Of a stretch of 64,000 nt of DNA, positions 1,839 to 56,572 are shown in pieces. Position 1 is the stretch's first letter; every line of letters begins with the position of its first letter. The translations under genes and the position numbers were made by a program. The DNA comes from Bacillus sp. AZ43 (lineage in GTDB: Bacteria > Actinomycetota > Actinomycetes > Mycobacteriales > Geodermatophilaceae), in NCBI GenBank assembly GCA_004570425.1, contig SPQJ01000003.1:124001-188000 (forward strand), in the 5' to 3' direction. Under the pieces are notes generated by a model, which did no database searches, had not been told where the DNA came from, and worked only from the letters and a program-made list of their open reading frames with translations.

Positions 1839-1885
1839 AGCCTTCCAAGCTGACTGTGCGGGTTCGATTCCCGTCACCCGCTCCG
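1839..1885 (+). repeat. tRNA-Gly(TCC) 3' half; first copy of a 47-bp direct repeat, probable att site
   Basis: This 47-bp stretch is identical to 56526-56572. It reads as the 3' half of a tRNA-Gly: anticodon stem-loop with loop CTTCCAA (anticodon TCC), variable region, T-arm with GGTTCGATTCC, and the 3' acceptor strand CACCCGC followed by TCC. No matching 5' half with a D-arm precedes it, so it is not a functional tRNA. Tyrosine-recombinase elements commonly use exactly this part of a tRNA gene as attachment core. The flanks of both copies are also similar, see findings. Confidence 0.8.
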
Positions 1886-1892
1886 ATGCGAT

Positions 1893-1925
1893 GTAGCGGG
1901 ACACCTCTCACAGGTGTCCCGCTAC
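1893..1925 (+). terminator. Perfect 14-bp stem hairpin after the tRNA relic
   Basis: Arms 1893-1906 and 1912-1925 are perfectly complementary, with a 5-base loop CTCAC. The core GCGGGA...TCCCGC is shared with the hairpins at 56578-56613 and 16348-16377. It sits just 3' of the tRNA relic, where a tRNA terminator or the left arm of an integrated element would be. Confidence 0.65.
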
Positions 1926-2022
1926 GTCATTCACGGTCATCTTGCGGTTGTTTGTACCCGGGTCGGGGTGGGGGCAGGGGCGCGGAGTAGTTGTCCGTGA
2001 GTTGCAATGATGCGGACGCGCG

Positions 2023-2106
2023 GACATCTACGTCCACGAGCCCGCCGAGGGCGACGAGAAGTTCCTGGAGGAGACCCGCCGCCCTCTGGGCCAGAAGGCC
2101 GCGTAG
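2023..2106 (+). pseudogene. C-terminal remnant of an unidentified gene
   Basis: A short reading frame of 27 codons ending in TAG at 2104-2106 has protein-like composition (DIYVHEP...GDEKFLEE...GQKAA) and G/C third positions. It has no start and breaks off upstream. A hairpin terminator follows directly (2124-2145). This looks like the last codons and terminator of a gene whose body was lost. I do not recognise the family. Confidence 0.35.
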
Positions 2107-2123
2107 GCGGCGCGAATCGAGGG

Positions 2124-2145
2124 GCCGGCTGCTCAGGCAGCCGGC
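2124..2145. terminator. 9-bp GC hairpin
   Basis: Arms GCCGGCTGC (2124-2132) and GCAGCCGGC (2137-2145) with the loop TCAG. It follows the remnant reading frame by 17 bases. Confidence 0.6.
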
Positions 2146-2533
2146 ACCTCCTCTTCGCGCGTTGGGCCGACCGACTGGATCCGCCCGTCGACTACCGCGA
2201 TCGCCGGAACTTCGAGAAGAAGCCGCCGCCAGCGCGGCCGGCCTGCCGATCGTGCCCTGGGCAGCGCTGTGCGGCTGGGACGCCTCGCATCACCTGGTCC
2301 ACGTGCTGACCGCAGCCGGCCCACGTTGTGTTGCCGCATGTCTTGCAGGACACCGCTCGACACATCCGTCCTTTTCCTTCTCCTCGAGGGTGATCGCGAG
2401 GGCGGAGGTCCTCGTCGACACCGGTGTTCCACCACACAGGTGGGGTGCAGGCAGCGCTGGCTTGGTGAGCTCTGCCGCTCGCACAACATGCCCCCGGGGG
2501 AATGCGTCGGACGGTGCTACCGTTGGTCCACAC

Positions 2534-2549
2534 ATACCCCCCCGGGTAT
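2534..2549. promoter_or_regulatory. CstR/CsoR-type operator upstream of rhodanese
   Basis: ATACCC-CCCC-GGGTAT: perfect 6-base arms with a 4-base centre, 27 bases before the GTG of the rhodanese gene. CsoR-family sensors, including the persulfide sensor CstR, bind palindromes of this kind. Related sites lie at 5840-5855, 8123-8138 and 15941-15956. Confidence 0.75.
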
Positions 2550-2576
2550 CTGACCCACAGACTTTCAGGAGCTGAC

Positions 2577-2891
2577 GTGATCCCCGAGATCGACCAGAAC
2601 ACCTTTGCCGCCCGGCTCGCCGAGGGCGATGCCCTCGTCGTCGACGTGCGCGAGGCGCGCGAGTACCGCCCCGGCCACGTCCCCGGCGCGCAGAACATGC
2701 CGCTGAGCGTGCTGCCGGCCCGCCTGCCCGAGCTGCCGAAGGACCGTCCGGTCTACGTGATCTGCCAGGCCGGTGGCCGCAGTGCCCAGGCGACGGCCCT
2801 CATGCGCGGCGTCGGCATCGACGCCACCAGCGTCGCCGGCGGCACCGGCGCCTGGATCGAGTCCGGCCGCCCGGTCGCCACCGCCGCCTGA
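2577..2891 (+). CDS. Single-domain rhodanese sulfurtransferase
   Basis: 104 residues from the GTG at 2577, chosen because AGGAG lies 7 bases upstream. A single rhodanese domain spans the whole protein: DVREAREY near residue 22, the GH(V)PGAQN signature, and the active Cys in VICQAGGRS near residue 63. It would carry sulfane sulfur as a cysteine persulfide between low-molecular thiols and other acceptors in the cytoplasm. It is first in a run rhodanese - dioxygenase fusion - rhodanese/membrane protein - TauE exporter, and a CstR-like palindrome lies in its promoter region, so induction by persulfide stress is likely. Confidence 0.92.
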   Translation: MIPEIDQNTFAARLAEGDALVVDVREAREYRPGHVPGAQNMPLSVLPARLPELPKDRPVYVICQAGGRSAQATALMRGVGIDATSVAGGTGAWIESGRPVATAA

Positions 2892-2928
2892 CCTGAACCA
2901 CGCCACCACGGCCCCGAGAGGAACCCCG

Positions 2929-4317
2929 ATGACGATCACCGTCCTCCCCCTGGACACCCCCGGCCTGGGTGACCGCACCTACATCGCCCACGACGGCGAG
3001 GTCGCGCTCGTGGTCGACCCGCAGCGCGACTACGACCGCGTGCTCGGCATCGCCGAGGCCGCCGGCGTCCGGATCACCCACGTCTTCGAGTCCCACATCC
3101 ACAACGACTACGTGACCGGCGGGCTGGAACTGGCCCGCGAGGTCGGCGCCCAGTACCTGCTGAACGCCGACGACCAGGTCTCCTTCGAGCGCACCGGGGT
3201 CTCCGACGGCGACATCGTCGAGGTGGGGGCCCGCATGCGCGTGCGGGTGCTGCTCACCCCCGGCCACACCCACACCCACCTGTCCTTCGCGCTCGAGGCC
3301 GACGGTGAGTCCGTGGCGGTCTTCACCGGCGGCTCCCTGCTCTACGGCTCCACCGGGCGCCCCGACCTGCTCGGCCCCGACCACACCCAGACGCTGGCGC
3401 ACGCCCAGTGGCACTCCGCGCAGCGGCTGGCCGCCGAGCTCCCGGACGAGACCGCCGTCTACCCGACGCACGGCTTCGGCAGCTTCTGCTCGGCCACCCA
3501 GTCCGGCGGCACCGCCAGCACCATCGGCCAGGAGAAGCTCGCCAACCCGGCCCTGACCACCGACGAGTCCCGCTACGTCGAGGATCTCCTCGCCGGCCTG
3601 GACGCCTACCCGGCCTACTACGCGCACATGGGCGCGGCCAACTCCGCCGGCCCCGGCGAGGCCGACCTCTCCCTGCCGACCGAGGCGGACCCGGCCGAGC
3701 TGCGCCGGCGCATCGAGGCCGGCGAGTGGGTCGTCGACCTCCGCAACCGCACGGCCTTCGCCGCCGGGCACGTCGGCGGGACGGTCAACTTCGGCCTGGA
3801 CGGGCAGTTCGTCACCTACCTCGCCTGGCTGATGCCCTGGGGCACCCCGGTGACCCTGCTCGGGGAGACCGCCGAGGACGTCGCCGAGGCCCAGCGCGAG
3901 CTGGTCCGGGTCGGCATCGACCGGCCGGCCGCGATGGCCACCGGCACGGTCGAGGACTGGTCCGGCGGCGAGCCGCTGCGGGCCTACCGCACCGCCACCT
4001 TCGCTGACCTCGCCGCCGAGTTCACCGCCGGCCGCAGCCCCCTCGTGCTCGACGTGCGGCGCAACCAGGAACGCGCCGAGCGGCACATCGCCGGTTCGCT
4101 GCACATCCCGATCCACGAGGTGCTCGAGCGCCTCGACGAGGTCCCGGCCGGGCCGGTGTGGGTGCACTGCGCCGGCGGCTACCGCGCCGGCGTCGTCGCC
4201 GCCCTGCTCGACGCGCACGGCATCGACGTCGTCGCCATCGACGACTCCTTCGACAATGCCGGCCCCGCCGGCCTCTACCTCACCACCGACGCGATCAAGC
4301 AGGAGATCCCCGCATGA
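2929..4317 (+). CDS. Persulfide dioxygenase (MBL fold) fused to two rhodanese domains
   Basis: 462 residues. The N-terminal metallo-beta-lactamase domain (~1-235) has the ETHE1-type HIHNDY motif, TPGHTHTH, and THGFGSFCS near residue 180, typical of glutathione-persulfide dioxygenases. Two rhodanese domains follow. The first (~255-350) has no Cys in its loop and is probably structural. The second (~365-455) has the active Cys in HCAGGYRAG. The protein would oxidise a thiol persulfide to sulfite and move sulfur with the rhodanese part. It starts 37 bases after the rhodanese and overlaps the next gene by ATGA. A divergent-strand paralogue lies at 6749-8107. Confidence 0.93.
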   Translation: MTITVLPLDTPGLGDRTYIAHDGEVALVVDPQRDYDRVLGIAEAAGVRITHVFESHIHNDYVTGGLELAREVGAQYLLNADDQVSFERTGVSDGDIVEVGARMRVRVLLTPGHTHTHLSFALEADGESVAVFTGGSLLYGSTGRPDLLGPDHTQTLAHAQWHSAQRLAAELPDETAVYPTHGFGSFCSATQSGGTASTIGQEKLANPALTTDESRYVEDLLAGLDAYPAYYAHMGAANSAGPGEADLSLPTEADPAELRRRIEAGEWVVDLRNRTAFAAGHVGGTVNFGLDGQFVTYLAWLMPWGTPVTLLGETAEDVAEAQRELVRVGIDRPAAMATGTVEDWSGGEPLRAYRTATFADLAAEFTAGRSPLVLDVRRNQERAERHIAGSLHIPIHEVLERLDEVPAGPVWVHCAGGYRAGVVAALLDAHGIDVVAIDDSFDNAGPAGLYLTTDAIKQEIPA

Positions 4318-4895
4318 CCACCCCCACCGTCGACGCCCCCACCCTCGCCGAGCGCCTCGGCAACAACTCGGACCCGGACCCCACGCTGATCGATGTCCGC
4401 ACACCGTCAGAGTTCGAGGCCGGCCACATCCCCGGCGCGGTCAACGTCCCCCTGGACGAGCTGAAGGGCTCGCTCGACGAGCTCCGCACGGTCCTGGACG
4501 ACCACCACGACGTCGTCCTCGTCTGCCGCTCCGGCGCCCGGGCTGGCCAGGCGCAGGAGGCCCTGCAGGCGGCTGGCCTTTCCTCCCCCGCCGTCCTCTC
4601 CGGCGGCATCGTGGACTGGGAGAAGACCGGCGGCACGGTGAACCGCGGCCGCCAGAGCTGGGAGCTCGAGCGCCAGGTCCGCCTGGCCGCCGGATCCCTC
4701 GTCGTCGCCGGGATCGTGGGCAGCACGGTCGCCCCCAAGGCGAAGTGGCTGTCCGGCTTCGTCGGCGGCGGGCTGGTCTTCGCCGCCGTCTCCAACACCT
4801 GCGCCATGGGCATGGCGCTGGCGAAGATGCCGTGGAACAAGCGGGGCGCCCGCGCCACCGGCTCGGCGCTGGACCAGCTCACCCGGAAGCGGTGA
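4314..4895 (+). CDS. Membrane-anchored rhodanese (rhodanese plus DUF2892-like tail)
   Basis: 193 residues. A rhodanese domain (~8-110) has IDVRTPSEFEAGHIPGA and the active Cys in LVCRSGARAG. The C-terminal ~75 residues contain two hydrophobic stretches (AAGSLVVAGIVG and GFVGGGLVFAAVS) followed by a basic tail, as in YgaP-type inner-membrane rhodaneses. It would handle sulfane sulfur at the membrane, close to the exporter encoded 4 bases downstream. The ATG overlaps the preceding stop. Confidence 0.9.
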   Translation: MTTPTVDAPTLAERLGNNSDPDPTLIDVRTPSEFEAGHIPGAVNVPLDELKGSLDELRTVLDDHHDVVLVCRSGARAGQAQEALQAAGLSSPAVLSGGIVDWEKTGGTVNRGRQSWELERQVRLAAGSLVVAGIVGSTVAPKAKWLSGFVGGGLVFAAVSNTCAMGMALAKMPWNKRGARATGSALDQLTRKR

Positions 4896-6155
<1,260 letters not shown>

Positions 6156-6167
6156 GCAGCGGCTCCC

Positions 6168-6201
6168 CGCGGCCCGCACCGGTAGTTCGGTGCGGGCCGC
6201 G
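6168..6201 (+). terminator. Strong terminator after the repressor gene
   Basis: Perfect 13-bp arms (6168-6180, 6189-6201) with an 8-base loop, 12 bases after the stop codon and followed by a short T-run. Confidence 0.85.
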
Positions 6202-6306
6202 CGCCGTTTCCTGGTCCGTTTCACCCGCAGGGCCGACGGGCACGGGCTCCGAGGCACCCGCCCGTGACGAGATGGAGGCGAGATAGGCCAGGAGGAAACC
6301 GACCCG

Positions 6307-6735
6307 GTGCGGACGCACACTCCCCAGCGGCTGACCCGGCGCCTGGACGACGAGCGGCTGGCGCGGATCGCGGAGTTCGGGACGGCGCCGCGGGAGAGGT
6401 CGAGCAGGCACCTCTCCCAGCTGGACCGGGAGTGGGACGTCGAGCGCAAGCTCGAGGCGAATGCCGCCACGCTCATGCTCGTGGGCGTCGCCCTCGCGGC
6501 CACGCGGTCGAAGCGATGGCTCGCGCTCGCCGGCGTGGTGCCCGCGTTCCTGCTCCAGCATGCGATCCAGGGCTGGTGCCCACCGATCGCCGCCTTCCGC
6601 GCTCTCGGCTCCCGGTCGCGCAACGAGATCGACGCCGAGCGCACCGCCATCAAGGCCCTCCGCGGAGACTTCGCCGGGCTGGAGCTGGAGCCCGGGGCGG
6701 CTGAGCGCGCCCTCGCAGCGGCCGGCGCACGCTGA
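6307..6735 (+). CDS. Small YgaP/DUF2892-like membrane protein
   Basis: 142 residues from a GTG start, with AGGAGG about 11 bases upstream. The basic N-terminal ~55 residues include DREWDVERKLEANAA. One hydrophobic hairpin follows (residues ~58-95: LMLVGVALAAT...LALAGVVPAFLL), then CPP and a cytoplasmic tail. Proteins like this usually sit next to rhodanese and CsoR-family genes, sometimes fused to rhodanese as at 4314-4895. Its biochemical role is unknown. It converges with the dioxygenase gene on the other strand. Confidence 0.75.
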   Translation: MRTHTPQRLTRRLDDERLARIAEFGTAPRERSSRHLSQLDREWDVERKLEANAATLMLVGVALAATRSKRWLALAGVVPAFLLQHAIQGWCPPIAAFRALGSRSRNEIDAERTAIKALRGDFAGLELEPGAAERALAAAGAR

Positions 6736-6748
6736 CACACCTCGAGAC

Positions 6749-8107
6749 CTAGGCGTCCTCGAGTCCAGCCTTTCCGGCCGACTCGTAGGAGTCGTTGACC
6801 AGGACCACGGAACGGCCGGGTCGGTCCAGCACCGAGGCCGCGATCGAGGCCCGGTAGCCGGAGCCGCAGTAGACCCACACCTCGCCCTGCGGCACCTCGT
6901 CGAGCCGGTCGGCGAGCTCGTGCAGCGGGATGTGCTGCGAGCCGCGCACGAAGCCGTCCGCCCGCTCGTCGTTGCGCCGGGCGTCGAGGACCTGCACCGG
7001 CCCCCGCTCCATCGCCTCGGCCAGGCCGGCGAAGTCACTCACCGGATACGACCGCAACGGCTGCCCGTCGGCGAGGGACTCGACGTCCCCGATCGCGGCA
7101 CCGGCCAGCTCGTCGACGCCGATCCGCACCAGCTCGCGGCGAGCCTCGGCCACCTGCTCCTCGCTCTCGCCGATCAGCGTCAGCGGCTCCCCGTAGCGGT
7201 AGAGCCAGCCGAGGTAGGTCACGAAGTTGGTGCCGAGCTCGACGTTCATCGCGTCGGTCAGGTGGCCGGCCGCGAACGCCGTGCGCTCGCGCAGGTCGAC
7301 CACCCACTCCCCCGCCTCGATACGCCGGCGCAGCCCCGCGGGGTCGACCTTCTCGGGCATGGAGAGGTCGACCGGCGCGGGGCCCCGCCGGTTGATGGGC
7401 GCCATGCGCGCGTAGTAGGCCGGGAAGGCGTCCAGCCCGGCGAGGAGGGTGTCGACGTACTCCTGTTCGGCCTGCGTGAGCGCGGGGTTGACCTTCGCCT
7501 GCTCCCCGATGGTCGACGACGTCCCGCTGGTCGGGGTGGCCGAGCAGAAGCTGCCGAAGCCGTGAGTGGGGAACACCTGCGCCTCGGCCGGTAGCTCGCG
7601 GGCCAGCCGCCGCACCGAGTGGTACTGGGCGTGGGTCAGCTCGTCGGTGACCTCGGGGCTGACTAGATCGGTGCGGCCCGTAGCGCCGTAGAGCATGGAT
7701 CCACCGGTGAACACCGCCTGGACGTCGCCGTCGCCGTCGCCGTCCGCCAGCGCATAGCTGACGTGGTGGTGGGTGTGCCCGGGGGTGTGCAGGGCCGTCA
7801 GCCGCAGCCGCCCGGCTGCGATCACTTCGCCGTCGGACACCGCCACGTGGTCGAGCTCGGCGTCGCTCCCGCTGGGCAGGACGTAGGCGGCACCCGTCTC
7901 ACGGGCGAGTTCGGGGCCCCCCGTCACGTAGTCGTTGTGGACGTGGGTCTCCAGGACGTGGGTGACCCGCACGCCGCGCCGCGCGACCAGGTCCAGCACC
8001 CGGTCGATGTCGCGCTGGGGATCGATCACCACGGCGACCTCGCCGTCGTCGATGAGGTAGCTCCGGTCGCCCAGGCTGGAGGTCTCGATCGTCTGCACAT
8101 CGAACAT
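6749..8107 (-). CDS. Second persulfide dioxygenase-rhodanese fusion
   Basis: 452 residues, paralogue of 2929-4317 with the same domain order. The MBL dioxygenase domain has HVHNDY, TPGHTHHH and THGFGSFCS. A rhodanese domain without active Cys follows (around GEWVVDLRERTAFAAGH), and then a rhodanese domain with its active Cys in VYCGSGYRAS. The role is as for its paralogue: oxidation of thiol persulfide to sulfite coupled to sulfur transfer. It follows DUF302 on the minus strand with a 49-base gap that contains a degenerate CstR-like palindrome and an AAGGGA ribosome site. Two copies within 6 kb suggest dosage or different thiol partners. Confidence 0.93.
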   Translation of the reverse strand: MFDVQTIETSSLGDRSYLIDDGEVAVVIDPQRDIDRVLDLVARRGVRVTHVLETHVHNDYVTGGPELARETGAAYVLPSGSDAELDHVAVSDGEVIAAGRLRLTALHTPGHTHHHVSYALADGDGDGDVQAVFTGGSMLYGATGRTDLVSPEVTDELTHAQYHSVRRLARELPAEAQVFPTHGFGSFCSATPTSGTSSTIGEQAKVNPALTQAEQEYVDTLLAGLDAFPAYYARMAPINRRGPAPVDLSMPEKVDPAGLRRRIEAGEWVVDLRERTAFAAGHLTDAMNVELGTNFVTYLGWLYRYGEPLTLIGESEEQVAEARRELVRIGVDELAGAAIGDVESLADGQPLRSYPVSDFAGLAEAMERGPVQVLDARRNDERADGFVRGSQHIPLHELADRLDEVPQGEVWVYCGSGYRASIAASVLDRPGRSVVLVNDSYESAGKAGLEDA

Positions 8108-8122
8108 GCCGTTGTCCCTTCT

Positions 8123-8138
8123 CTACCCCGTACGGTAC
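8123..8138. promoter_or_regulatory. Degenerate CstR-type operator
   Basis: Read on the minus strand this is GTACCG-TACG-GGGTAG, ten of twelve arm positions matching the other three sites. It lies 16 bases upstream of the second dioxygenase ATG. A weaker or diverged site is possible. Confidence 0.45.
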
Positions 8139-8156
8139 AAACCGTCTGCGGCGGGC

Positions 8157-8546
8157 TCAGCTCCTGAGTGCCGCCAGCGCCGCATCCAGACGACGCCCGG
8201 CCTCGTCGGCCATGGGCTGCAGCTCGGGCCGGCCGGTCATCGACACCATGGTCTGCGGGTCGAGGACCTGCACCGTGGAGCCGTCACCGGCCTGGCTGAC
8301 CACGACGTTGCACGGCAGCAGCACGCCGACGCCGCGGTCCGCCTCCAGTGCCTGCTGCGCGAGGTCGGGGGCACAGGCGCCCAGGATCAGGTAGGGCTCC
8401 ATCTCCACTCCGCGCTTCTGCCGCAGCGTGGCCTGCACGTCGATCTCGGTGAGAATGCCGAAGCCCTGCTCGGCCAACGCCTCCTTTGTGCGTGTCACCG
8501 CCTCTGGGAACGGAACGTCGAGGTCGAGGGTCCGTCGGTACTCCAT
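8157..8546 (-). CDS. DUF302 family protein
   Basis: 129 residues, a single DUF302 domain. It has the conserved LGACAPDLAQQALEAD and VGVLLPCNVVV stretches with two cysteines. DUF302 proteins are small cytoplasmic alpha/beta proteins of unknown activity that often neighbour sulfur-oxidation or heavy-metal genes. It appears to be first in a two-gene minus-strand unit with the dioxygenase fusion. Its ATG is preceded by GGAAGGAA. Confidence 0.85.
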   Translation of the reverse strand: MEYRRTLDLDVPFPEAVTRTKEALAEQGFGILTEIDVQATLRQKRGVEMEPYLILGACAPDLAQQALEADRGVGVLLPCNVVVSQAGDGSTVQVLDPQTMVSMTGRPELQPMADEAGRRLDAALAALRS

Positions 8547-9120
8547 GCGGCCGTTCCTTCCGGAGCGCCGCCCGACGTTGAGAGGCGGCCCGCCTGCTCG
8601 GACCGCCGGTCGGTGCGGCGAGGTCTCGGCGTCCCTACCCGCACCGACCCTGCCGTACCGCCCGTTGGGGCCGGCGACGACGCTGGACGACGGCCAGCGG
8701 GCTGACCTGCGTCGTTGCCCTCGCGGTCGCCCGCTGCCTATTCTCGATCTGTGTACTGGGGATTTGCACCGAGCCGGCCCGCGTTCTGCGTGTGCCTCCT
8801 CGCGGTGACCCCGCTCGTGGTCGACGACCGGCTCTGTCCGGGCGGCACTCCTTCCCGCTGAGCCAGCGCTCAGCGGTCCCGTGTCCGCCCGCACGCCAGC
8901 CGAAGGACCTCCGTTGACCGAGATCGCCGCGCCCGTCCCCACACCCTTGCCGCTCGCCCGAGCAGTCGAGGCGGTCACCCCGGCCGCCACACCGGTCGCG
9001 ACCAGCTCTGCCCCGGCCCGCCGATCGCGGTGGCGGCGCCTGGTCTCCGCCGTCGCTGACACGCACCGAGCAGCCGTCCCCTTCTGACGGGCTTGCCCGC
9101 CACTGACGCGCGCCGGGAGC
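8547..9120. other. Intergenic stretch with hairpin and possible small gene
   Basis: 574 bases between DUF302 and CtaG-like genes. The only structure I can support is a 9-bp inverted repeat (8855-8863 and 8868-8876, CCGCTGAGC/GCTCAGCGG, loop CAGC) and a possible 57-residue reading frame at 8914-9087. Nothing else is recognisable. Confidence 0.5.
8914..9087 (+). CDS. Possible small proline/alanine-rich protein
   Basis: 57 residues from TTG at 8914, with AAGGA 6 bases upstream. The N-terminal two thirds are low complexity (Ala, Pro, Val, Thr). The C-terminus is basic and amphipathic (ARRSRWRRLVSAVADTHRA). Codon third positions are G/C rich, as in real genes here, but the length is too short for certainty and I recognise no family. 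The hairpin at 8855-8876 would lie in its leader. Confidence 0.35.
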   Translation: MTEIAAPVPTPLPLARAVEAVTPAATPVATSSAPARRSRWRRLVSAVADTHRAAVPF

Positions 9121-9969
9121 TCACACGGCGGGAGCGTTGCTGGCCACCGCGGCCGGTTCCCGCGCGAGTGCCCGCCCTGTGCGGCGGTACCAGGCGGCGA
9201 ACAGCGCGACGAGCAGCAACAGGTCCGCGACGTGGCCGCCGTAGTACATCAACTGTGCAGCAACCTCGACCTCCGCGGCGTCGTGCCCGCCACCCACCGG
9301 TAGCACCGGAGCACGGGAGAACAGCAGCTTGGCCAGGAAGGCGTGCAAGCCGCCGGCGACGACGAGGACGACCAGACGTACCGCCATGCCCGGCCGGCGC
9401 GGCGCGGGATCGGGCCCGGCCACCGCCCAGGCGAACAGGTACCCGGCCAGCAGGAAGTGCAGGTGCAACAGGTGGTGCACAACGTCTGACCGGGCGCTCA
9501 AGGCGTACAGCGGCGTCAGGTAGAGCAGGTACAGCCCGCCGACGCTGAGCACCGCGGCGGTGGCCACGTGGGACAGCCCGTGCAGCACCCGCGACCGCAG
9601 CAGCACGGCTGCCGGGCGCCGGGCGGACACGGGCAGACCCGAGAGCAGCAGGGTCACCGGGGCGCCCATGACCAAGGCAATGGGCGCGAACATCCCCAGC
9701 AACAGGTGCTGCGCCATGTGCCCGTCGGCCGTGCCGGCGTCGACAGCCGGGGACAGCGCGGCTCCCACCAGGACGGCTCCCAGCAGGAAGCTCGCCGTCC
9801 GCCCGCCGCTCCAGCGGCGGCCACTCCCCCGCATGCGGGCGACGCCGGCCAGGTAGCCCGCGCCGAGCACGACGGCGACCAGCACCGGCAACAGCCACGC
9901 CGCCGCGGCGGAGCCCGTCCCGTGCGAACCGCCGTGCGCCAGCACGGCGGCTCCGGACATGGTGTTCAC
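9121..9969 (-). CDS. CtaG/CtaG-like cytochrome c oxidase assembly membrane protein
   Basis: 282 residues. The start GTG at 9969 overlaps the DUF2243 stop (GTGA). There are about seven transmembrane segments with the caa3_CtaG pattern: conserved His in DGHMAQHLLLGMFAPI, SDVVHHLLHLHFLLAGYLF, and a late QLMYYGGHVADLLL. Family members act at the plasma membrane in copper insertion into haem-copper oxidase. Translational coupling to DUF2243 suggests that the two act together. Confidence 0.88.
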   Translation of the reverse strand: MNTMSGAAVLAHGGSHGTGSAAAAWLLPVLVAVVLGAGYLAGVARMRGSGRRWSGGRTASFLLGAVLVGAALSPAVDAGTADGHMAQHLLLGMFAPIALVMGAPVTLLLSGLPVSARRPAAVLLRSRVLHGLSHVATAAVLSVGGLYLLYLTPLYALSARSDVVHHLLHLHFLLAGYLFAWAVAGPDPAPRRPGMAVRLVVLVVAGGLHAFLAKLLFSRAPVLPVGGGHDAAEVEVAAQLMYYGGHVADLLLLVALFAAWYRRTGRALAREPAAVASNAPAV

Positions 9970-10448: not shown

Positions 10449-10465
10449 GCCGAGTCCTCCTGGCG

Positions 10466-11005: not shown

Positions 11006-11034
11006 AGCCCCTCCGGCGCGGATCTACACGGTCA

Positions 11035-11613: not shown

Positions 11614-11642
11614 GTCGCTCCCCTCGATCACACCGGGCTGCC

Positions 11643-40926: not shown

Positions 40927-40930
<4 letters not shown>

Positions 40931-44727: not shown

Positions 44728-45018
44728 TTAGCCATCTGGCGATGTGGCGCACAACACCCCGGGTCGGCTTTCTGGCGGGCCCGCCCCCTTTGGCGGCGCG
44801 GCTTCGTCGAACGGTTCAGCGACCGGCCGCTCCCGATCATCGGAGCCACCTTCCTGACCACCGGCGCTGGTCGGCTCCGGGCGATCACCCGTGGGTGGGT
44901 GACCCGCTGGATCCTGGCCCCGACCTTCCCGCTCGTCATCGCCCGGCGGCAGCGCCCAGCGGGGGCTCTGGAGTCATGGCAGGTCTGGCGAACGTGGGAC
45001 GGAGCGGCGGAGGAGCTC

Positions 45019-45823: not shown

Positions 45824-45922
45824 CCGACCCGCGGTTCGCCCCGGCCCCGGCCCGGGAGCCGCCGGCTGTGCGGGGCAGCCGGCCCCGCCCAATGGACGGA
45901 GCCGGCTGCATCCAGGGGTCGG

Positions 45923-46855: not shown

Positions 46856-46933
46856 AGGATTCTCCTTCTGGGAACGACTCGGGACGTGCGGAAAGAACTC
46901 GTGGGTGGTGCAGCGCGACCGCCGGCCGGCCGG

Positions 46934-48436: not shown

Positions 48437-48497
48437 GCTCGGTACCCATCTGCCGGGTGACGGCGGTCACCACGGAAGCTAGCCGCGAGAGTTCCAC

Positions 48498-49706
48498 GTG
48501 AGCCATGACACAATAGGCCGTAAGTTGATTATTTCGGCCAACCCTCAGCCCTTCGACGCCCCCGTCCGCGGCACGGGCAGCGTGGCTCTGCTGTGCGCGC
48601 TCGCCATGGAGCACGGCCTGCCTCGCCGTGATGTCCTGGCCGGCGGCGGGATACCGGAAGCAGCCCTCGAGGACCCGGACGCCGAGATCACCGGCGCCCA
48701 AGAGCTGCGCGCCATCGCCGCGGTCGCCGAGTCGCTGCCCGAGGACGCAGGCCTGACCGCCGGCGGGCGGTACCGGCTCGCGAGCTACGGCATCTGGGGC
48801 TTCGCCCTGCTCTCGAGCCGCACCCTGCGTGAGGCACACGAGGTCGCCATGCGGTTCGTCGACCTCACCTACGCCCTGACGCGCATCAGCGCCCAGGAGG
48901 ACGAGGGCGAGGTCCGGCTGTTCTTCGACGACTTGGACGTCCCGGAACACGTCCGGCGCTTCGTCCTGCTCCGCGACACCTCGGCGGCCCTCCAGCTGTG
49001 GCGCGAAACCCTCGGCCGCCCGGTCGTGCCGCTGCGCGTGACGCTGCGACTGCCGCAACCGGCCGACCCCACGGGGTACGAGACCGCGTTCGGCGTGCCA
49101 TCCCTGTTCGGGACCGCACGGTCGATGCTGGCCTTCGACGCTGCCCTGCTCGACCAGCCATTGCCGCAGGCGGCCCCCCTGACCGCCGCACTCTGCCAGG
49201 CCCAGTGCCGGGACCTCCTCCAGCGCCGCCACTCACGGCAGGGGACGAGCGGACGCGTGCGGGACCTCCTTGTGCACACGGGAGGCCGGATCCTCGGACA
49301 GGAGGAGGTCGCCGCCGAGCTGCACGTCAGCGTGCGGACCTTGCGCCGAATGCTCGAGGACGACGGAACCACCTTCCGCGCCATCGTGGAGCAGACACGT
49401 GAACACCTGGCGGAGGAGCTGCTCGTGACCGCCGGTCTGAGCGTCGAGCAGGTCGCTCGACGGCTCGGATACACGGATGCCTCAACTTTCGTCCATGCCT
49501 TCCGACGGTGGAAAGGGATCAGCCCCGGCCGCTGGAAGGAGCGGAAACGCGGGCTCCCGGTGCGGCCGTCCACGAACGGTCGGAAGTCCCGGCCGGCGGC
49601 CGGCGTAAGTGACGGCCGCGCCGGCCGAGCCGCAGATGGGATCCCTGTCCCATCGACGAGTTCGAAAGCCCCGGGCCCGAGAGAGCCCGGCGCCGCCGAC
49701 TCCTGA
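48498..49706 (+). CDS. AraC-family regulator (VirS-like, arabinose-binding-like domain)
   Basis: 402 residues from GTG at 48498. The N-terminal Arabinose_bd-type domain (~25-220) is followed by a C-terminal AraC helix-turn-helix pair at ~262-345 (VAAELHVSVRTLRRML and SVEQVARRLGYTDASTFVHAFRRWKG). A 50-residue disordered tail follows that relatives of ~340 residues lack, so the stop may have shifted. It starts only 61 bases from the divergent monooxygenase, which it very probably regulates. The N-terminus could begin somewhat later. Confidence 0.9.
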   Translation: MSHDTIGRKLIISANPQPFDAPVRGTGSVALLCALAMEHGLPRRDVLAGGGIPEAALEDPDAEITGAQELRAIAAVAESLPEDAGLTAGGRYRLASYGIWGFALLSSRTLREAHEVAMRFVDLTYALTRISAQEDEGEVRLFFDDLDVPEHVRRFVLLRDTSAALQLWRETLGRPVVPLRVTLRLPQPADPTGYETAFGVPSLFGTARSMLAFDAALLDQPLPQAAPLTAALCQAQCRDLLQRRHSRQGTSGRVRDLLVHTGGRILGQEEVAAELHVSVRTLRRMLEDDGTTFRAIVEQTREHLAEELLVTAGLSVEQVARRLGYTDASTFVHAFRRWKGISPGRWKERKRGLPVRPSTNGRKSRPAAGVSDGRAGRAADGIPVPSTSSKAPGPREPGAADS

Positions 49707-49735
49707 GCATTCGCGCCTCCCGTTCGAGGCCGCGC

Positions 49736-50056
49736 TCAGTCGGAGGTGTTGGGCCGTTCAGTTCGATCCCGCTCCGGCCGATCGGCCGCCGATGGGCAGC
49801 CGGCCCGTATCCACGATTCCATCGCGGCGACCCCTCGTGCCGCCTCGAGCGCGATCATGATCTGCTGGCGACCCGGTCGCCGCCAGGTCGGGGGCCCGGC
49901 CGCCAGCCAGTCGGTCAGCACCGCGGGACGTCCTGTCCACGCCGTGCCCATGGCCAGGCTGCCGGTCATCAGGCACCAGAGCAGCAAACGGGCCGCGCGC
50001 AGCAGCCACAAGCCGAGGCTGTAGAGGTACAGCCTGGTTCGGAGGAGGTACTCCAC
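49736..50056 (-). CDS. Small membrane protein A (EAARG-AxESW tail)
   Basis: 106 residues from GTG at 50056, preceded by GGAGAGAGGGG. One or two N-terminal hydrophobic stretches (YSLGLWLLRAARLLLWCLMTG) lead to a C-terminal amphipathic motif EAARGVAAMESWIRAG. The same motif ends the protein at 52629-52964. No named family is known to me. It lies convergent to the AraC gene and downstream of the MFS efflux gene. Confidence 0.6.
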   Translation of the reverse strand: MEYLLRTRLYLYSLGLWLLRAARLLLWCLMTGSLAMGTAWTGRPAVLTDWLAAGPPTWRRPGRQQIMIALEAARGVAAMESWIRAGCPSAADRPERDRTERPNTSD

Positions 50057-50274
50057 CGCCCCCCCTCTCTCCAGGGGTCTGCCCGCTCACAGCGTCACGA
50101 CCGCCGCGGGTCACCCCCGGCTGTTGCGAACTGCAACCATGGTCCCGCGGTGCAGTGCGAAAGGGAAGGGTTCCGTCTGCGGGCAGCATCTGGGGGCAGC
50201 TAGCTGTAGCGCCCCGGAGACACAGGCTGGCCTGGCTGGTCCGGTGGTCCCGCGACTACCGACGGCAGAGGCCG

Positions 50275-51987
50275 CTATGGCTCGGCCTTCGGAAGTCGCG
50301 CACCGGCCGATCCGCGGGCGTCGGAAGCGCTCCTGCGTCCGGCATCGTCCGCGCCATGCCCGAGATCGCAGTCCGGATCGACCGCCGTCTCGAAGGCCTC
50401 TGCGACGTTCTCCCCGGTGGTGTGCTCCTGCGCGTGTTCGCGCAGCGGGGTCTCCCGCAAGAACAGCAGCACGAGGAACCCGAGCAGAGCGAACGGCACG
50501 GCGGCGAGGAAAGTGGTCTGCAGCGCGTCGGCGAAGCCGGTGATGACCGCGGTGTGCACCGGTTCGGGCAGTGCGCCGATCTGTTCGGGGCTGCCCAGCG
50601 TCGGAGTCCCGCCGGCGATCCGGTCGGCCGGGACGCCGGCCTCGGCGAGGCGGGACGGGATGGTGTCGGCGAGGCGATGGGTGAGCAGGGCGCCGAACAC
50701 CGCCACCCCCAAAGCGCCGCCCAGTGACCGGAAGAACGTGGCCCCGGAGGTGGCCACGCCCAGGTCCTTCTGCTCCACGGCGTTCTGGGTGGCCAGCACC
50801 AGCACCTGCATCACCAGGCCGATGCCGACGCCCGTGACCAGCATGTACAGCCCGGCCACCACCAGGGAGGTGTCGACGGCGAGCCGGCTCATCAGCCCCA
50901 GCCCGACCGCTGCGATCAGGAGGCCGACCACCGGGAAGATCTTGTACCGACCGGTGGCCGTGATCGCCCGCCCGGAGCCGATGGAGGCAGCGAGCAGGCC
51001 CACCATGAGCGGCAGCGTCAGCAGCCCCGAAGCAGTCGGCGACTCCCCCTTGACGATCTGCAGGTACTGCGGCAGGAAGATGATCGCGCCGAACATCGCG
51101 ACACCGACGACGAAGCCGGCCAGGCTGGTGACGACGAAGGTGTGGTTCGCGAACAGGTGCGGCGGCATGATCGGCTCGCCTGCGCGACGCTCCTGCCACA
51201 CGGCGAGCACCAGCAGGACGGCGGCCGCGGCGGCGAGCGCATAGGTCCAGGCCGAGTTCCAGGCGAACTCCTTGCCGCCCAGCGACAGCATCAGCAGCAG
51301 CGCGCTGACCGAGGCGACGATGAAGAAGGCACCGAGCCAGTCGATGGAGTGCCGGCTGCGCGGGAACGGCAGCTTCAACACGCGCTCGGTGACGATCAGG
51401 GCCGCCACGCCGATCGGGATGCCCACCCAGAAGGTCCACCGCCAGGACAGGTGCTCGACGAGGAACCCGCCGAGCAGCGGTCCCGCGACCGTCGCGATCC
51501 CGAACACGGAACCGATGTAGCCCTGGTAGCGACCACGCTCCCGCGGGCTGACGACGTCGCCGATGATCGCCTGCGACAACGCCATCAGTCCGCCGACACC
51601 CAGCCCCTGAACCGCGCGGAACGCGATCAACTGCGCCATGTCCTGCGCGAAGCCGCTGGCCAAGGATGCGAGCAGGAAGATCCCGATGGCGGACTGGAAC
51701 ATGATCTTCCGCCCGTAGAGATCGGACAGCTTGCCCCAGATCGGTGTGGATGCGGTGGAGGTCAGCAGCGTCGCCGAGACGACCCAGGCCAGCTGCTCCT
51801 GCCCACCGAGCTCGCCCACGATGGTCGGCAACGCCGTGGCCACGATGGTCTGCGAGAGCGCCGCGACCAGCATGCCCAGCATGAGCCCGAGCAGCACGGT
51901 CAGGATCTGCCGGTGTTCCAACGGTGGCAGGCCCTGGTGGCCGCTCGAGGAGTCCGGCGTCTGGCTGTGAGGAGCAGGGGAACTCAC
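50275..51987 (-). CDS. MFS multidrug efflux transporter, DHA2 (14-TM) family
   Basis: 570 residues from GTG overlapping the MarR stop. It has about fourteen membrane segments, motif A as GKLSDLYGRKIMF, the DHA2 motif in the first helix (LSQTIVATALPTIV), and RAVQGLGVGGLMALSQAIIGD. The ~55-residue C-terminal tail is acidic and disordered. It exports drugs or toxic hydrophobic compounds by proton antiport. Translational coupling to the MarR regulator indicates direct control by it. Confidence 0.92.
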   Translation of the reverse strand: MSSPAPHSQTPDSSSGHQGLPPLEHRQILTVLLGLMLGMLVAALSQTIVATALPTIVGELGGQEQLAWVVSATLLTSTASTPIWGKLSDLYGRKIMFQSAIGIFLLASLASGFAQDMAQLIAFRAVQGLGVGGLMALSQAIIGDVVSPRERGRYQGYIGSVFGIATVAGPLLGGFLVEHLSWRWTFWVGIPIGVAALIVTERVLKLPFPRSRHSIDWLGAFFIVASVSALLLMLSLGGKEFAWNSAWTYALAAAAAVLLVLAVWQERRAGEPIMPPHLFANHTFVVTSLAGFVVGVAMFGAIIFLPQYLQIVKGESPTASGLLTLPLMVGLLAASIGSGRAITATGRYKIFPVVGLLIAAVGLGLMSRLAVDTSLVVAGLYMLVTGVGIGLVMQVLVLATQNAVEQKDLGVATSGATFFRSLGGALGVAVFGALLTHRLADTIPSRLAEAGVPADRIAGGTPTLGSPEQIGALPEPVHTAVITGFADALQTTFLAAVPFALLGFLVLLFLRETPLREHAQEHTTGENVAEAFETAVDPDCDLGHGADDAGRRSASDARGSAGARLPKAEP

Positions 51988-52508
51988 GCGCGCAGGACCT
52001 CTTTCGAACCGGCTTCGTCGGGGGTTGCGGCGGATCTGTCCGGGCTCGCGCCGGAGGGCGACGGCGCTCCGCCGGCCATTGCCTCGGTGACTCTGCCGTC
52101 GAGACCTGCGTTCAACCGTTCCAGCAGCGCTGCAAAGGTGTCCTGCTCGTCGATCGGCCACGAGCCGATCAGCTCGCGCACGGCATTCCGGCGGACCTGA
52201 CGTGTCCCAGCGACCGCACGCCGCCCCGCCGATGTCAGCCGCAGCCGGCAGGCCCGCCCGTCCTCGGGGTCCGCCTCGCGCGTGACAAGCCCGGCCTGCT
52301 GCAGGCTGGCCACGTGCCGGCTCACCGTCGAGGCGTCGAGGTACAACCGGGCCGCCAACGCCCCGTTGCGCATCGGTCCCTCGTCGTTGAGGAAGCCCAG
52401 GATCGTGTATGCGCTCCGCTCCAGTGGCTCCACGGGCCCATCGGTGTGGAGCTGGACGCGCTGAGCCCGGCGGACCAGATGGGTCAGCTCACGTTCGATG
52501 CGCACCAT
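51984..52508 (-). CDS. MarR-family regulator of the efflux pump
   Basis: 174 residues from ATG at 52508, with GAGGGG upstream; an ATG 36 bases earlier (52544) has no ribosome site. The winged helix is at ~43-100 (MRNGALAARLYLDASTVSRHVASLQQAGLVTREADPEDGRA), where DPEDGRA is the classical MarR wing. The ~35-residue C-terminal tail is disordered. It overlaps the MFS start by GTGA and probably represses the two-gene operon. Confidence 0.9.
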   Translation of the reverse strand: MVRIERELTHLVRRAQRVQLHTDGPVEPLERSAYTILGFLNDEGPMRNGALAARLYLDASTVSRHVASLQQAGLVTREADPEDGRACRLRLTSAGRRAVAGTRQVRRNAVRELIGSWPIDEQDTFAALLERLNAGLDGRVTEAMAGGAPSPSGASPDRSAATPDEAGSKEVLRA

Positions 52509-52628
52509 GGACCCCTCAGCCGATCCGGCCCCACCCAGTTGCATGGGCCAACCATAAGGCGTTGCCGACGAAGGTTCCAGCTCTACCGCCGCCGGTGGAA
52601 CTCCCCACCTACGCAGTCCGCCATCCGG

Positions 52629-52964
52629 TCAGCCCTCGGCGCTGGATCCCGCCTCGTCGCCTCCCGTCGACCCCGGCGATGACTGGCCCAGCCACGACTC
52701 CAGGGCGGCGATGCCACGCGCCGCTTCCCGGTGCACGAGCTCATCGTCGAATCGCGGTGCAGGTGAGCCATCGACCGGCCCGGACCGCCCCGGTGCACCG
52801 TGGAGCAGGTGCCGACCCGCGGCGTAGAGGCCGTAGCAGGACACCGCCACGCCGCCCATACAGAACGCCGCAACCAGGGTCCACGTGAAGGCGGGTAAGG
52901 CTTCCTCCAGCAGGCGCGACAGCGCTTCCCCCGTCGCCTCCCAGGCCACTACCGAGGCACCCAT
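52629..52964 (-). CDS. Small membrane protein B, relative of 49736-50056
   Basis: 111 residues from ATG at 52964; an in-frame GTG at 53000 is an alternative. One transmembrane segment (FTWTLVAAFCMGGVAVSCYGLYAAG, ~25-48) is followed by a hydrophilic part ending in REAARGIAALESWLGQS. The closing motif aligns with EAARGVAAMESWIRAG of the protein at 49736-50056. The two genes bracket the MarR/MFS operon on the same strand. Function unknown. Confidence 0.6.
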   Translation of the reverse strand: MGASVVAWEATGEALSRLLEEALPAFTWTLVAAFCMGGVAVSCYGLYAAGRHLLHGAPGRSGPVDGSPAPRFDDELVHREAARGIAALESWLGQSSPGSTGGDEAGSSAEG

Positions 52965-53000
52965 CAGTCGCCGCCAATCAACGTGCGGCACCACAGCCAC

Positions 53001-53332
53001 CGGGCCATGGCGCCCGCGTGCGAGGACTTCAGCCTATTCCCGTACCGGCTCGGAACGGATGGTTGCACACGTCATCTTTCGACCAATCCCCAGCGAGACC
53101 TGCACCCGGGCAGAGGTCCGCGGCGGGTTCCACGATCAGGTTGCGAGTCCCCATCGTTCCGTGACACGTCCCACCTCAGGCCGTGAGCGAGGCGCTGTGG
53201 CGTGTAGCGGTGCGCGCCGGGCTTGACCCGAGGGACCTCGCCGGGGCCGACGGGCACGACCGGTCACGGACACCGCCCCCCTCGAATGGGTGGTCGCGCT
53301 CAAGACGAGTTGAGCCGTACCGATACGGAACC
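53001..53332. other. Intergenic region before the GGDEF-EAL gene
   Basis: 332 bases with no convincing gene. An in-frame extension of the GGDEF-EAL frame exists from 53183, but its sequence is Arg/Pro-rich chance-like peptide. A small palindromic stretch CCGTACCGATACGG lies at 53315-53328, just before the ATG. It may be part of the promoter or an operator. Confidence 0.5.
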
Positions 53333-55999
53333 ATGCGATTCGTGCGGTTCTCCGAGCAGAGCATGCGCCGCGCCTCGCCCCTGTGGTGCTACCTGACGGC
53401 GCTCGTGCTGCTGCCGCTCCTCGGCGTCATGGTCTTGGCCACCGCCGCGGCACAGACCCGGGCGAGCGAGGCGGACAGTGCCGCACGCGCGGAGAACGGC
53501 ATGCGGACCCTCGCGGCCCTCGACGGCGCGCGCCGGAGCGTGGAGCAGGAGCTGATCCCGTTCCTGTGGCTGCACGTCGTCGCCAACCCGGAGGCCATCG
53601 CCATGCTCGACCTGCCGCCGGGACTGCTGGAGGTACAGGCCGAGACGATGGCGCGCGACTCCGCGCGGGTCCGAGCGGTGACCGATCGGGCGCTGGCCGG
53701 CGTGCCGGCCGGCTCGGTGGGCTCCGCTGCCGCCGAGCGCGCCGCGACGGACCTGGCCCTGCTGCGCTCCGGTGGCAACACGCTGAACCTCGACATCGAG
53801 GACGTCTACTTCCGTTTCCTGGCCGTCTCGAACGATCTGATGACCGCCCAGCAGGCCGCCGCAGCCGCCGCCACCGCGGAAGGGATCCCGGGGGTCACCC
53901 TGCGGGCACTCCAGGACGTGCAGTCCATCGCGCGGCTCAGCCAGGTCGCCAGCCGGCAGCTCCCGCTCTTCTTCGGGTCCATGTTCGCCGGCGGGGACAG
54001 CATGATCGGCTCGCGCACCGCGTGGCAGACCGCCCTGCTCGACTACAGCGACGCCGAACGCCAGATGAAGTCCCTGTCCCAGCCCTCGCTGCGAGAGGCA
54101 TGGCGGGCCGTGCAGACGTCCGACGCCGTGGGCGCCGTGGACGGCGTGCTGACCAGCGGTGCGGACGGCGACACCCCCACCGTGTCCGTCGCCGAGATCG
54201 CCACGCTGCTCGTCCAGACCCAGGAGCGCAACGATCTGCTGGGCGAGCTCGTCGAGACCGCGATCGGCAACGCCCACACGCTGGTGTCCGCCGACCGGGA
54301 GGAGGCCACCGGTCAGCTGCGGGGGATCCTTCTCCTCGCCGCCGGCCTGCTGGCCGTCTCGCTGCTCGCCGCACTGGTGCTCGGCCGCAGCGTGGCCGGC
54401 GCGCTGCGACTGCTGGCCGGGCAGGCCAGCCAGATCAGCGAGGGCTCGCTGGTGGAGGTGGAGGTCGCCGGACCGCGCGAGGTGCGCACCGTCTCGGCGG
54501 CGCTGGGAGCCGCCGTCGCCGGGCTGCGCCGGATCCAGGACCAGGCCCAGGCCGTCGCCCGCGGCGACCTCGACGACGCCCTGCTCGACCAGCCGCTGCC
54601 CGGACCGCTCGGTGAGGTCGTCCACGCGTCGGTCAAGGAGATCGTGCACGCGGTACGCCAGCGCGAGGAGCTGCAGTCCGCCCTCGCCCACCAGGCCACC
54701 CACGACGCGCTCACCGAGCTGCCCAACCGCGCCCAGGCCGTCACGCTGGTCACCGGCGCGCTGCACCGCGGCCGGCGGTCCGGTCAGATGACCGGCCTGC
54801 TCTTCGTGGATCTCGACGGCTTCAAAGCGGTCAACGACGGGCACGGGCACGCCGCCGGCGACGAGGTGCTGCGCGAGGTCGCCCGCCGGCTCACGGCCGG
54901 GGTCCGGCCCGGCGACGTGGTCTGCCGCCTGGGCGGCGACGAGTTCGTCGTCCTCGTGGAGCCCGTGCACACCGAGCACGACCTGCTGGAACTCAGCCAC
55001 CGGCTGATCTCCTCGATCAGCGAGCCGATGGTGGTCCAGCGTGCCCAGGTCCGGATCGGCGCCAGCATCGGCGTAGCGGTCAGCCGGGACGGCAGCACCG
55101 ACGCCGACGTGCTCTTCGCCGAGGCCGACGCCGCCGCCTACCGCGCCAAGGCTGCGGGGCGTGGCCGCGCGGAGATCTTCGACGAAACCCTGCGGCGGCA
55201 GCTCAACCAGCGGGCGGCACTGGAGGTGGCGATCGCCACCGGCCTGGCCAACGGTGAGATGCAGGTGGCGTACCAGCCCGTCATGGAGGTCGCCACCGAC
55301 CGGCTGAGGGGCTACGAGGCGCTCATCCGCTGGACGCGACCCGGTGTCGGACCGGTCGCTCCAGACCAGTGGATCCCCGTGGCCGAGGGGTCCCGACTGA
55401 TCGGTGAGGTCGACCGCTGGATGCTGCACGAGGCCACCCGCCAGCTGGCGCAGTGGCGGGCCGAGTCCCCCGCCGCGCCGGGGGCGCCCGACCCGACGAT
55501 CGCGGTGAACATCTCTGGACGGCACCTGGCCGACCCGCGGGTGATCAGCGACGTCGCCGACGCGCTGGAGGCGTCCGGGCTGCCCGCTCACCTGCTGGTC
55601 CTGGAGGTCACCGAGACCGTGCTGGTCGACGACCCGCTGGCCAATGACCACCTCACCGAGCTGCGCGCCATGGGCGTCAGCATCGCCATCGACTACTTCG
55701 GCACCGGATACACCTCCATCGGCCAGCTGCGCAACATGCCGGTCGACACGCTCAAGATCGACCGCAGCTTCGTGGCCTCCACGGAGCCCGCCCACCGCGA
55801 GCTCGTCGCCCTAATGATCAGAGCGGCGCACACCTTCGGGTTGACCGTCGTCGCCGAGGGCGTGGAGGAGCCGGACCAGCTGGCGCAGCTCAAGGCGCAG
55901 GAATGCGACCAGGCCCAGGGCTACCTGCTCTACCGGCCCATGCCCGCCACCGAGGCCGGGGCGCTGCTCCGCAGCCCCCAGCCCGCCGGCTCGCTCTGA
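53333..55999 (+). CDS. Membrane c-di-GMP turnover protein, GGDEF-EAL
   Basis: 888 residues. Transmembrane helix 1 is at ~14-36, followed by an extracytoplasmic nitrate/sensor-like region (~40-320) and helix 2 at ~325-350. A HAMP-like linker leads to a GGDEF domain (intact GGDEF at 534-538) and an EAL domain (~630-880; EAL at 662-664). EAL residues seen: VNISG, EVTET, KIDRSF, AEGVEE and QGYLLYRP. However, the metal-binding DDFGTG motif reads D787-Y788-FGTG, so phosphodiesterase activity is doubtful and cyclase activity may dominate. No I-site (RxxD) is placed clearly before the GGDEF. Confidence 0.92.
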   Translation: MRFVRFSEQSMRRASPLWCYLTALVLLPLLGVMVLATAAAQTRASEADSAARAENGMRTLAALDGARRSVEQELIPFLWLHVVANPEAIAMLDLPPGLLEVQAETMARDSARVRAVTDRALAGVPAGSVGSAAAERAATDLALLRSGGNTLNLDIEDVYFRFLAVSNDLMTAQQAAAAAATAEGIPGVTLRALQDVQSIARLSQVASRQLPLFFGSMFAGGDSMIGSRTAWQTALLDYSDAERQMKSLSQPSLREAWRAVQTSDAVGAVDGVLTSGADGDTPTVSVAEIATLLVQTQERNDLLGELVETAIGNAHTLVSADREEATGQLRGILLLAAGLLAVSLLAALVLGRSVAGALRLLAGQASQISEGSLVEVEVAGPREVRTVSAALGAAVAGLRRIQDQAQAVARGDLDDALLDQPLPGPLGEVVHASVKEIVHAVRQREELQSALAHQATHDALTELPNRAQAVTLVTGALHRGRRSGQMTGLLFVDLDGFKAVNDGHGHAAGDEVLREVARRLTAGVRPGDVVCRLGGDEFVVLVEPVHTEHDLLELSHRLISSISEPMVVQRAQVRIGASIGVAVSRDGSTDADVLFAEADAAAYRAKAAGRGRAEIFDETLRRQLNQRAALEVAIATGLANGEMQVAYQPVMEVATDRLRGYEALIRWTRPGVGPVAPDQWIPVAEGSRLIGEVDRWMLHEATRQLAQWRAESPAAPGAPDPTIAVNISGRHLADPRVISDVADALEASGLPAHLLVLEVTETVLVDDPLANDHLTELRAMGVSIAIDYFGTGYTSIGQLRNMPVDTLKIDRSFVASTEPAHRELVALMIRAAHTFGLTVVAEGVEEPDQLAQLKAQECDQAQGYLLYRPMPATEAGALLRSPQPAGSL

Positions 56000-56525
56000 G
56001 ATGGAGCGACACGGTCCTGCGAGAGGGTGTGGGGGACACGACGACCTCCTGATCGAGGGCCGTCCATAGACAACTCCACAGCCCACCCAGACGTCTGAGC
56101 CATGCCGAGACTGGCACTACTGAGCAGACTCCCGGTCATTGACCGGCTCGCTGGCGCACGCCACGGTGACGGCCGAGACATCGACGACACCGCGATCGCC
56201 CCTACCCGCCGCAAGCGCAACGCCTCCTTGCGCGGCAGCAGGCCGCCCCCCGAGGAGGCGGCCAGCTCCGCAGAGCCATGGAGCAACCCAGAGGCGGATC
56301 GCGAGGTCGACGGCGTCGAACCCGTCGACCTTGTTCGGTCCGGAAGGTGCTGATCGCCTCGCCCCGCGATAGGACATGACGTCTCCCACCCTGGGTTACC
56401 CCCGAGCCGAAGAGGAGCCGGGACGCCGCATGCGCCGGCATTGCAAGCGCGGTGTTGAAGGCACGCGGAAGGCACGGCATCCGCGTGCCTCACGTCCCGC
56501 CTGCGGGAACAGGGCTAGAGTCTCA

Positions 56526-56572
56526 AGCCTTCCAAGCTGACTGTGCGGGTTCGATTCCCGTCACCCGCTCCG
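56526..56572 (+). repeat. tRNA-Gly(TCC) 3' half; second copy of the 47-bp direct repeat, probable att site
   Basis: Identical over 47 bp to 1839-1885. As there, anticodon stem-loop (TCC), T-arm and 3' acceptor strand are present and the 5' half is missing. A motif AAGGCACGCGGAA begins 70 bases before the CCTTCC of this copy (71 for the other), so the upstream arms are alignable. The two copies bracket 54.7 kb. Confidence 0.8.

Follow-up and report, generated by a model that had tools for sequence, protein, structure and literature searches.

The 64,000-nucleotide stretch analysed here (the window) corresponds to G000:C44:124001-188000, that is, to contig C44 (SPQJ01000003.1) of the genome of Bacillus sp. 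AZ43 (4.06 Mb in 78 contigs), which belongs to a Blastococcus-like group of the Geodermatophilaceae. It contains two copies of the 3' half of a tRNA-Gly(TCC) gene, named relic 1 and relic 2, on either side of 54.7 kb of metabolic genes (Table 1), and this interval is the right-hand part of a longer stretch described below as a putative composite integrative and conjugative element (ICE). Outside the window, contig coordinates are used. A sequence-only reading of the window had taken the two relics for identical 47-bp 3' halves, and comparison of the two sites agrees with it: 47 of 47 bp are identical, the adjoining bases are unlike on both sides, and the similarity is 94% over 63 nt. By a rough estimate that assumes a G+C content of 0.72, about 1e-15 exact 46-mer pairs would be expected by chance in 64 kb. 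ARAGORN called no tRNA inside the window. Rfam gave a marginal tRNA match at 1823-1882 (30.3 bits versus a gathering score of 29, E 0.027), yet the idea that relic 1 is a degenerate whole tRNA was set aside, as its 5' part fits the right-end signature that precedes other relics. Because the bases upstream of relic 1 resemble that signature, the statement that neither relic has a 5' half is upheld as a judgement.

The intact tRNA-Gly(TCC) gene, which had been predicted to lie outside the window, was searched for and found 55.4 kb to the left of relic 1; the genome has 48 tRNA matches, and ARAGORN called one intact tRNA-Gly(TCC) on the loci fetched. Its 3' half carries a different allele, GGCC, which differs from the ACTG allele of the relics at 6 of 46 positions. 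The ACTG allele is present in an intact tRNA gene of Modestobacter caceresii (L151). The interval had also been described as lacking an integrase, and this holds: only one of the nine PF00589 matches in the genome is on C44 (C44:120351-120884), outside the window. A search of the flanks, which had been suggested, identified the corresponding 377-aa gene at C44:119820-120953, with its 3' end 4.9 kb to the left of relic 1.

Counted from the intact tRNA through relic 2, the longer stretch spans 110.2 kb and comprises conjugation genes, one tyrosine integrase gene, relic 1 and the window interval. Two Blastococcus genomes and Klenkia terrae also carry it, at 97-99.98% identity; two of these copies are broken by contig ends, and the left part is unlike in K. 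terrae. Scanning genome contigs for the ACTG half returned eight stretches, three of which (K. terrae, Blastococcus aggregatus and Blastococcus sp. MG754426) match at about 99% through relic 1. B. aggregatus DSM 4725 matches C44:85556-180571 at 99.67% (95,022 columns), and the match ends with the final base of the relic 2 core; its contig begins 262 bases before the match, so that the left end of the element is not visible there. In MG754426 the match covers C44:70354-127069 (99.84%), beginning at the tRNA, and C44:169858-180690 (98.2%); both element ends can be read, while the middle sits on other contigs. In ungapped comparison with the AZ43 sequence, its identity is 31% in the 300 nt to the left of the tRNA, 100% in the 300 nt to the right, and 29% to the right of relic 2. 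In K. terrae, four pieces with 99.5-99.98% identity make up the match to C44:89763-180659. The left core flanks of K. terrae and MG754426 are 74-91% identical to that of the window genome. The carriers are thus four genomes of three genus groups (g1, g2 and g8). As the shared stretch crosses relic 1 leftward into the conjugation genes in the carriers and has its right-hand end at relic 2, only relic 2 is a current border, and relic 1 lies inside. We therefore regard the 110.2-kb stretch as likely to be one composite ICE bordered by the intact tRNA-Gly(TCC) and relic 2.

The sequence-only reading had named collinearity of the interval, with both relics, with core genes in close relatives as the finding that would refute it. 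A 13.3-kb cargo query was instead found at full length in only 4 of 112 family genomes (97-100% identity), namely the four element carriers; three relatives do hold the interval with both relics, yet within the mobile block. The proposal that the repeats are of the att type is borne out. The further proposal of at least two elements stacked at one tRNA-Gly gene stands as far as multiple insertion layers are concerned, but the interval was not seen to move as a separate unit.

The place of strand exchange can be narrowed down at relic 2. The 75 nt to its left are identical in all four carriers, whereas downstream of the segment AGCCTTCCAAGCTG the window has the ACTG allele and the other three carriers have GGCC, and the DNA past the relic is unlike. 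The base immediately to the left of this 14-mer is not the same in the tRNA and in the element. The allele switch on one side and the unlike base on the other place the exchange inside AGCCTTCCAAGCTG, and the earlier tRNA 3' half of the window genome was therefore of the ACTG type, GGCC having been brought by the insertion. It follows that each insertion supplies a new tRNA 3' half and moves the old one to the far end. When the window flanks were rejoined in silico to give the empty site, the product was recognized as a tRNA-Gly(TCC); over 185 columns it shares 87% identity with an intact Modestobacter locus.

Table 1. Features of the window and of the element (window positions unless C44 is given)
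Feature	Position	Strand	Remark
Composite element, window part	1..56572		Starts 53.6 kb left of the window at the intact tRNA-Gly, C44:70355
ABC transporter ATPase	897..1586	+	End of the module left of relic 1
Right-end signature left of relic 1 (AAGGCACG..AAGCACG + CACCAGC box)	1769..1838	+	Profile E 0.0019, 34 model positions
Relic 1	1839..1885	+	tRNA-Gly(TCC) 3' half, ACTG allele; internal scar; same sequence in 4/4 carriers
Hairpin 3' of relic 1	1893..1925	+
Sulfur genes: rhodaneses, metallo-beta-lactamase-fold/rhodanese fusions, TauE, DUF302	2577..8546
CtaG-like, methyltransferase, DsbD, DsbA-like, GntR, rhodanese, TauE, thioredoxin	9121..16347
Ferredoxin reductase, P450, TetR, Fe-S/CCG protein, MMPL	16579..27661
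Dienelactone hydrolase, AMP ligases, acyl-CoA dehydrogenases, biotin carboxylase, carboxyltransferase, AtuA	27772..44668
Alpha/beta hydrolase, FMO-like, AraC, MFS, MarR, GGDEF-EAL	45923..55999
Right-end signature left of relic 2	56458..56525	+	Profile E 7.6e-6, 31 model positions
Relic 2	56526..56572	+	tRNA-Gly(TCC) 3' half; right border of the element
Crossover segment AGCCTTCCAAGCTG, 14 bp	56526..56539	+	Exchange took place within it; anticodon arm
Hairpin 3' of relic 2	56578..56614	+	Outside the element
Intact tRNA-Gly(TCC)	C44:70355-70428	+	Outside the window; strand of the relics; ARAGORN

The left half of the element encodes restriction-modification proteins, a TrwC relaxase-helicase-primase, a TraG/D coupling protein, an M23 peptidase, a VirB4-like ATPase, an SCO6880-family protein, TadA/TadE/T2SSF proteins and the integrase, followed by a two-component and ABC module that extends up to relic 1. 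The relaxase, of the MobF type, was recognized by TrwC (PF08751) and the coupling protein by TraG-D_C (PF12696); the NCBIfam match of the VirB4-like protein (E 2.5e-11) is under the curated cut-off, and that of the SCO6880-family protein is above its own. Together with an integrase (PF00589) located within the element, these genes agree with the definition of an ICE, as does site-specific insertion between direct repeats, the tRNA 3' half at C44:70382-70427 and relic 2, with ends visible in other hosts. A conjugation query matched 50 of 112 family genomes, at full length and 100% identity in the four carriers and at 94% in G030, and these carriers also have one and the same integrase (100% identity). 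The presence of near-identical copies in three genus groups suggests that the element may excise and be transferred by conjugation. A related conjugation module (89% identity; L223-L225, G003:C4:373395-431884) was observed a few kb from a tRNA-Asn, a hint that members of this ICE family may swap their integration modules.

The interval between the relics has the anatomy of a cis-mobilizable element (CIME), with relics at both ends and no integration or transfer genes found when most of its predicted genes of 100 aa or more were scanned against Pfam (one of 106 aa was left out). It recurs together with the conjugation part as one block in K. terrae and B. aggregatus. Relic 1 would then be an old junction inside the composite ICE, and the metabolic cargo would fit a decayed, integrase-less element captured by accretion, a capture that we hold to be slightly more likely than not. 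A second copy of the sulfur module, 90-93% identical, is present in B. aggregatus (G017:C8:483165-488129).

Both relics are preceded by a right-end signature, recognized with a profile built from 23 relic flanks, none of which came from the element in the window; the two window sites match it over just 31-34 positions. Of 19 integrase loci, 6 (representing 3 distinct genes) match the same profile in the last 66-70 nt of the gene (E 4e-4 to 8e-4), the best of 60 shuffles giving E 0.87; the other 13 loci had no match below E 0.1. This flank signature aligns with the end of the integrase gene, and many relics were read as right ends that have lost their integrase. A direct-repeat motif was present at 20 of 39 relics, eight of these being two sites of the present element counted in each of its four copies, and at none of 17 intact tRNAs, against a background of 33 matches in 2,468,156 bases (0.0015 per 110 nt). 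A looser box of the CACCAGC/GACCAG type accompanies 30 of 39 relics but none of the 17 intact genes. The motifs were picked after inspection of the sites, and one relic had only 20 nt of flank.

The tRNA-Gly(TCC) gene is an insertion hotspot between conserved core segments in the Blastococcus-like group of the Geodermatophilaceae. In the genus scan the 3'-half pattern was matched in 15 of 16 genomes; core DNA to the left of the tRNA matches in all six relatives compared, and the right-hand core segment starts some 8-57 kb past the tRNA in seven relatives that have both on one fetched stretch. In the window genome, this right-hand core follows a third relic on contig C18 (relic at C18:8135, core from C18:9033). 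From left to right, the array on C44 thus consists of the tRNA, 55.4 kb of DNA, relic 1, a further 54.6 kb, relic 2 and 14.7 kb up to the contig end, presumably followed, beyond a gap of undefined size, by 8.1 kb, relic 3 and core. To the right of relic 2, at window positions 57073-63501 and in L038, copper amine oxidase, amidase, histone-deacetylase-like, formamidase and urease-like genes were seen before the contig ends. A PF00589 match is held by one of 17 relic-bracketed intervals in the genus and 16 show none, with one of six PF00589 matches of G013 absent from the listing. The open reading frames of six bracketed intervals look metabolic or regulatory, as judged by eye from the frames listed. 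Three relics were observed in each of G008 (C1:1466944-1522760) and G007 (C11:106591-150406), about 140-200 kb upstream of the intact tRNA and oriented like it, a placement not expected from simple insertion at the tRNA.

Several observations weigh against a composite ICE that was built up at tRNA-Gly by its own integrase. An unbroken copy from tRNA to relic 2 was read only in the window's own genome. K. terrae is unlike in the 12 kb that follow the tRNA and 93% identical in the next 4.2 kb, and internally it lacks about 1.4 kb and has 1.5 kb extra. The integrase gene is directly followed not by tRNA-Gly but by a tRNA-His 3' end with its hairpin kept (C44:121006-121039, L036:17006-17039), identical at 32 of 34 positions to the tRNA-His of the genome, whose gene on C50 contains the only other genomic copy of its 28-mer. 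Either the integrase's own att site has been replaced or the enzyme acts on tRNA-His. This flank was therefore rejected as proof of a tRNA-Gly enzyme and the loci of relatives were read instead, 30 in total, consisting of the four identical carriers with the tRNA-His end and 26 others. The tRNA-Gly(TCC) 3' end had the best downstream score in 7 of these 26, with 45 of 45 nt in L191, strong scores in L203 and L205, and weak ones in L180, L187, L188 and L192, three of them seen as decayed relics. Seven others have tRNA-Ser(TGA) ends, one (L195) has tRNA-Pro with an intact tRNA-Gly nearby, and 11 have nothing clear; decayed tRNA-Gly traces were noted in just three of 11 loci listed at 88-91% identity. 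A whole-gene integrase DNA profile moreover missed both window relics at E <= 0.01. Some relatives of the integrase lie beside tRNA-Gly(TCC) 3' halves, and we infer from them that this integrase acts on tRNA-Gly here and could do the work of insertion. An integrase of G004 was rejected as a local helper, since no tRNA end lies beside its gene. The final points against accretion come from G038 and G027. Both have conjugation and cargo genes related to those of the element (75-91% identity) and arranged as they are there, and between the two groups the fetched stretches show a 72-nt integrase fragment and no tRNA-Gly site. The cargo may accordingly have been on the ICE from the start, linked to it before relic 1 came between them.

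If so, the cargo would be native to this ICE family, and relic 1 and the integrase region would have been inserted later between conjugation and cargo genes, with no capture of a CIME. G039 and G096, which also have conjugation and cargo matches on one contig, point the same way as G038 and G027; the anatomy of relic 1, with a signature on its left and a hairpin on its right, is however that of a junction between two elements, and the closest conjugation genes, those of G030, come without a full cargo match. On balance we give this history an appreciable but minor probability. An origin of the cargo by decay of an ICE at the same site would agree with the resemblance of both relics' signature to the end of an integrase gene, whereas the cargo of G038 and G027 lies without att sites. 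The right-end signatures at both relics, the hairpin after relic 1, as after several other relics, and the 16 further bracketed intervals of the genus would also suit two independent elements stacked at one tRNA, the interval moving, or having moved, as its own unit between relics 1 and 2. This is unlikely, as each of the other three carriers has the interval continuing across relic 1 into the conjugation genes, and none of the 112 family genomes had the 13.3-kb query in full without the rest of the element.

Arrival of the block by homologous recombination without an integrase, or a shared sequence due to assembly or contamination, would be in line with the draft state of three of the four carrier genomes, which have many contigs, and with the tRNA-His flank of the integrase. 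It is highly improbable, since the unlike flanks are on the same contigs as the block, which ends at the tRNA half and is followed in the window by the other allele after the 14-mer. A phage origin was rejected, no stretch in viral contigs having an exact match to the degenerate tRNA-Gly core pattern. A family-wide cassette system can be put forward only tentatively: metabolic modules ended by an integrase-gene tail and a tRNA-Gly(TCC) 3' half would accumulate downstream of one tRNA gene, and incoming ICEs that supply an integrase would capture them and carry them across genera, each insertion swapping the tRNA 3' half and leaving a readable layer of the old allele.

Accretion of ICEs and CIMEs, and arrays of islands at one RNA gene of which many lack an integrase, have already been described, and the present element is a new, well-resolved example. 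CIME302 of Streptococcus thermophilus has att sites without integration or transfer genes, lies in tandem with ICESt1, and transfer of CIME-ICE tandems has been reported (PMC5704250, PMC8978831). The element described here likewise has an att-bounded part without such genes next to an ICE, but it is inserted at tRNA-Gly(TCC) in Actinomycetota, its ICE has a MobF-type relaxase, a VirB4-like ATPase and Tad-like genes, and the composite is nearly unchanged across three genus groups. The ssrA islands of Dehalococcoides also form an array at one RNA gene with many members that lack an integrase: numerous tandem islands are bounded by direct repeats of the gene's 3' end. An integration module is present in 16 of them and absent from 15, and those that lack it have been discussed as cis-mobilizable elements (PMC3146451). 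They use a serine recombinase and 20-bp tmRNA repeats, in contrast to the tyrosine integrase, ~46-bp tRNA halves and crossover in the anticodon arm found here. Actinomycete integrative and conjugative elements (AICEs) and type IV secretion system (T4SS)-type ICEs of actinobacteria share the tyrosine integrase, the tRNA 3' end and the TrwC relaxase, a relaxase marker in that survey, which also reports AICE tandems at tRNA genes (PMC3218068). The arrays are longer here, and Geodermatophilus and Blastococcus have 0 occurrences in the main text of that paper. No tRNA-Gly ICE or CIME array in Geodermatophilaceae was found among the literature matches listed, which are mostly of open-access coverage.

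In this single composite element, readable in four hosts, the crossover interval, the displaced tRNA alleles and the internal scar can be followed together. In actinomycetes of soil and stone, it thus gives an opportunity to test how metabolic islands without an integrase may be acquired and spread, and the tRNA-Gly(TCC) array could allow gene gain in the Geodermatophilaceae to be traced by layers. Elsewhere on C44, at 12246-12341 (L069:12246-12341), ARAGORN called a tRNA-Pyl(CTA), which is also present in G008. This is probably the tRNA-Sec with a CUA anticodon reported for Geodermatophilaceae in an excerpt of PMC5330540.

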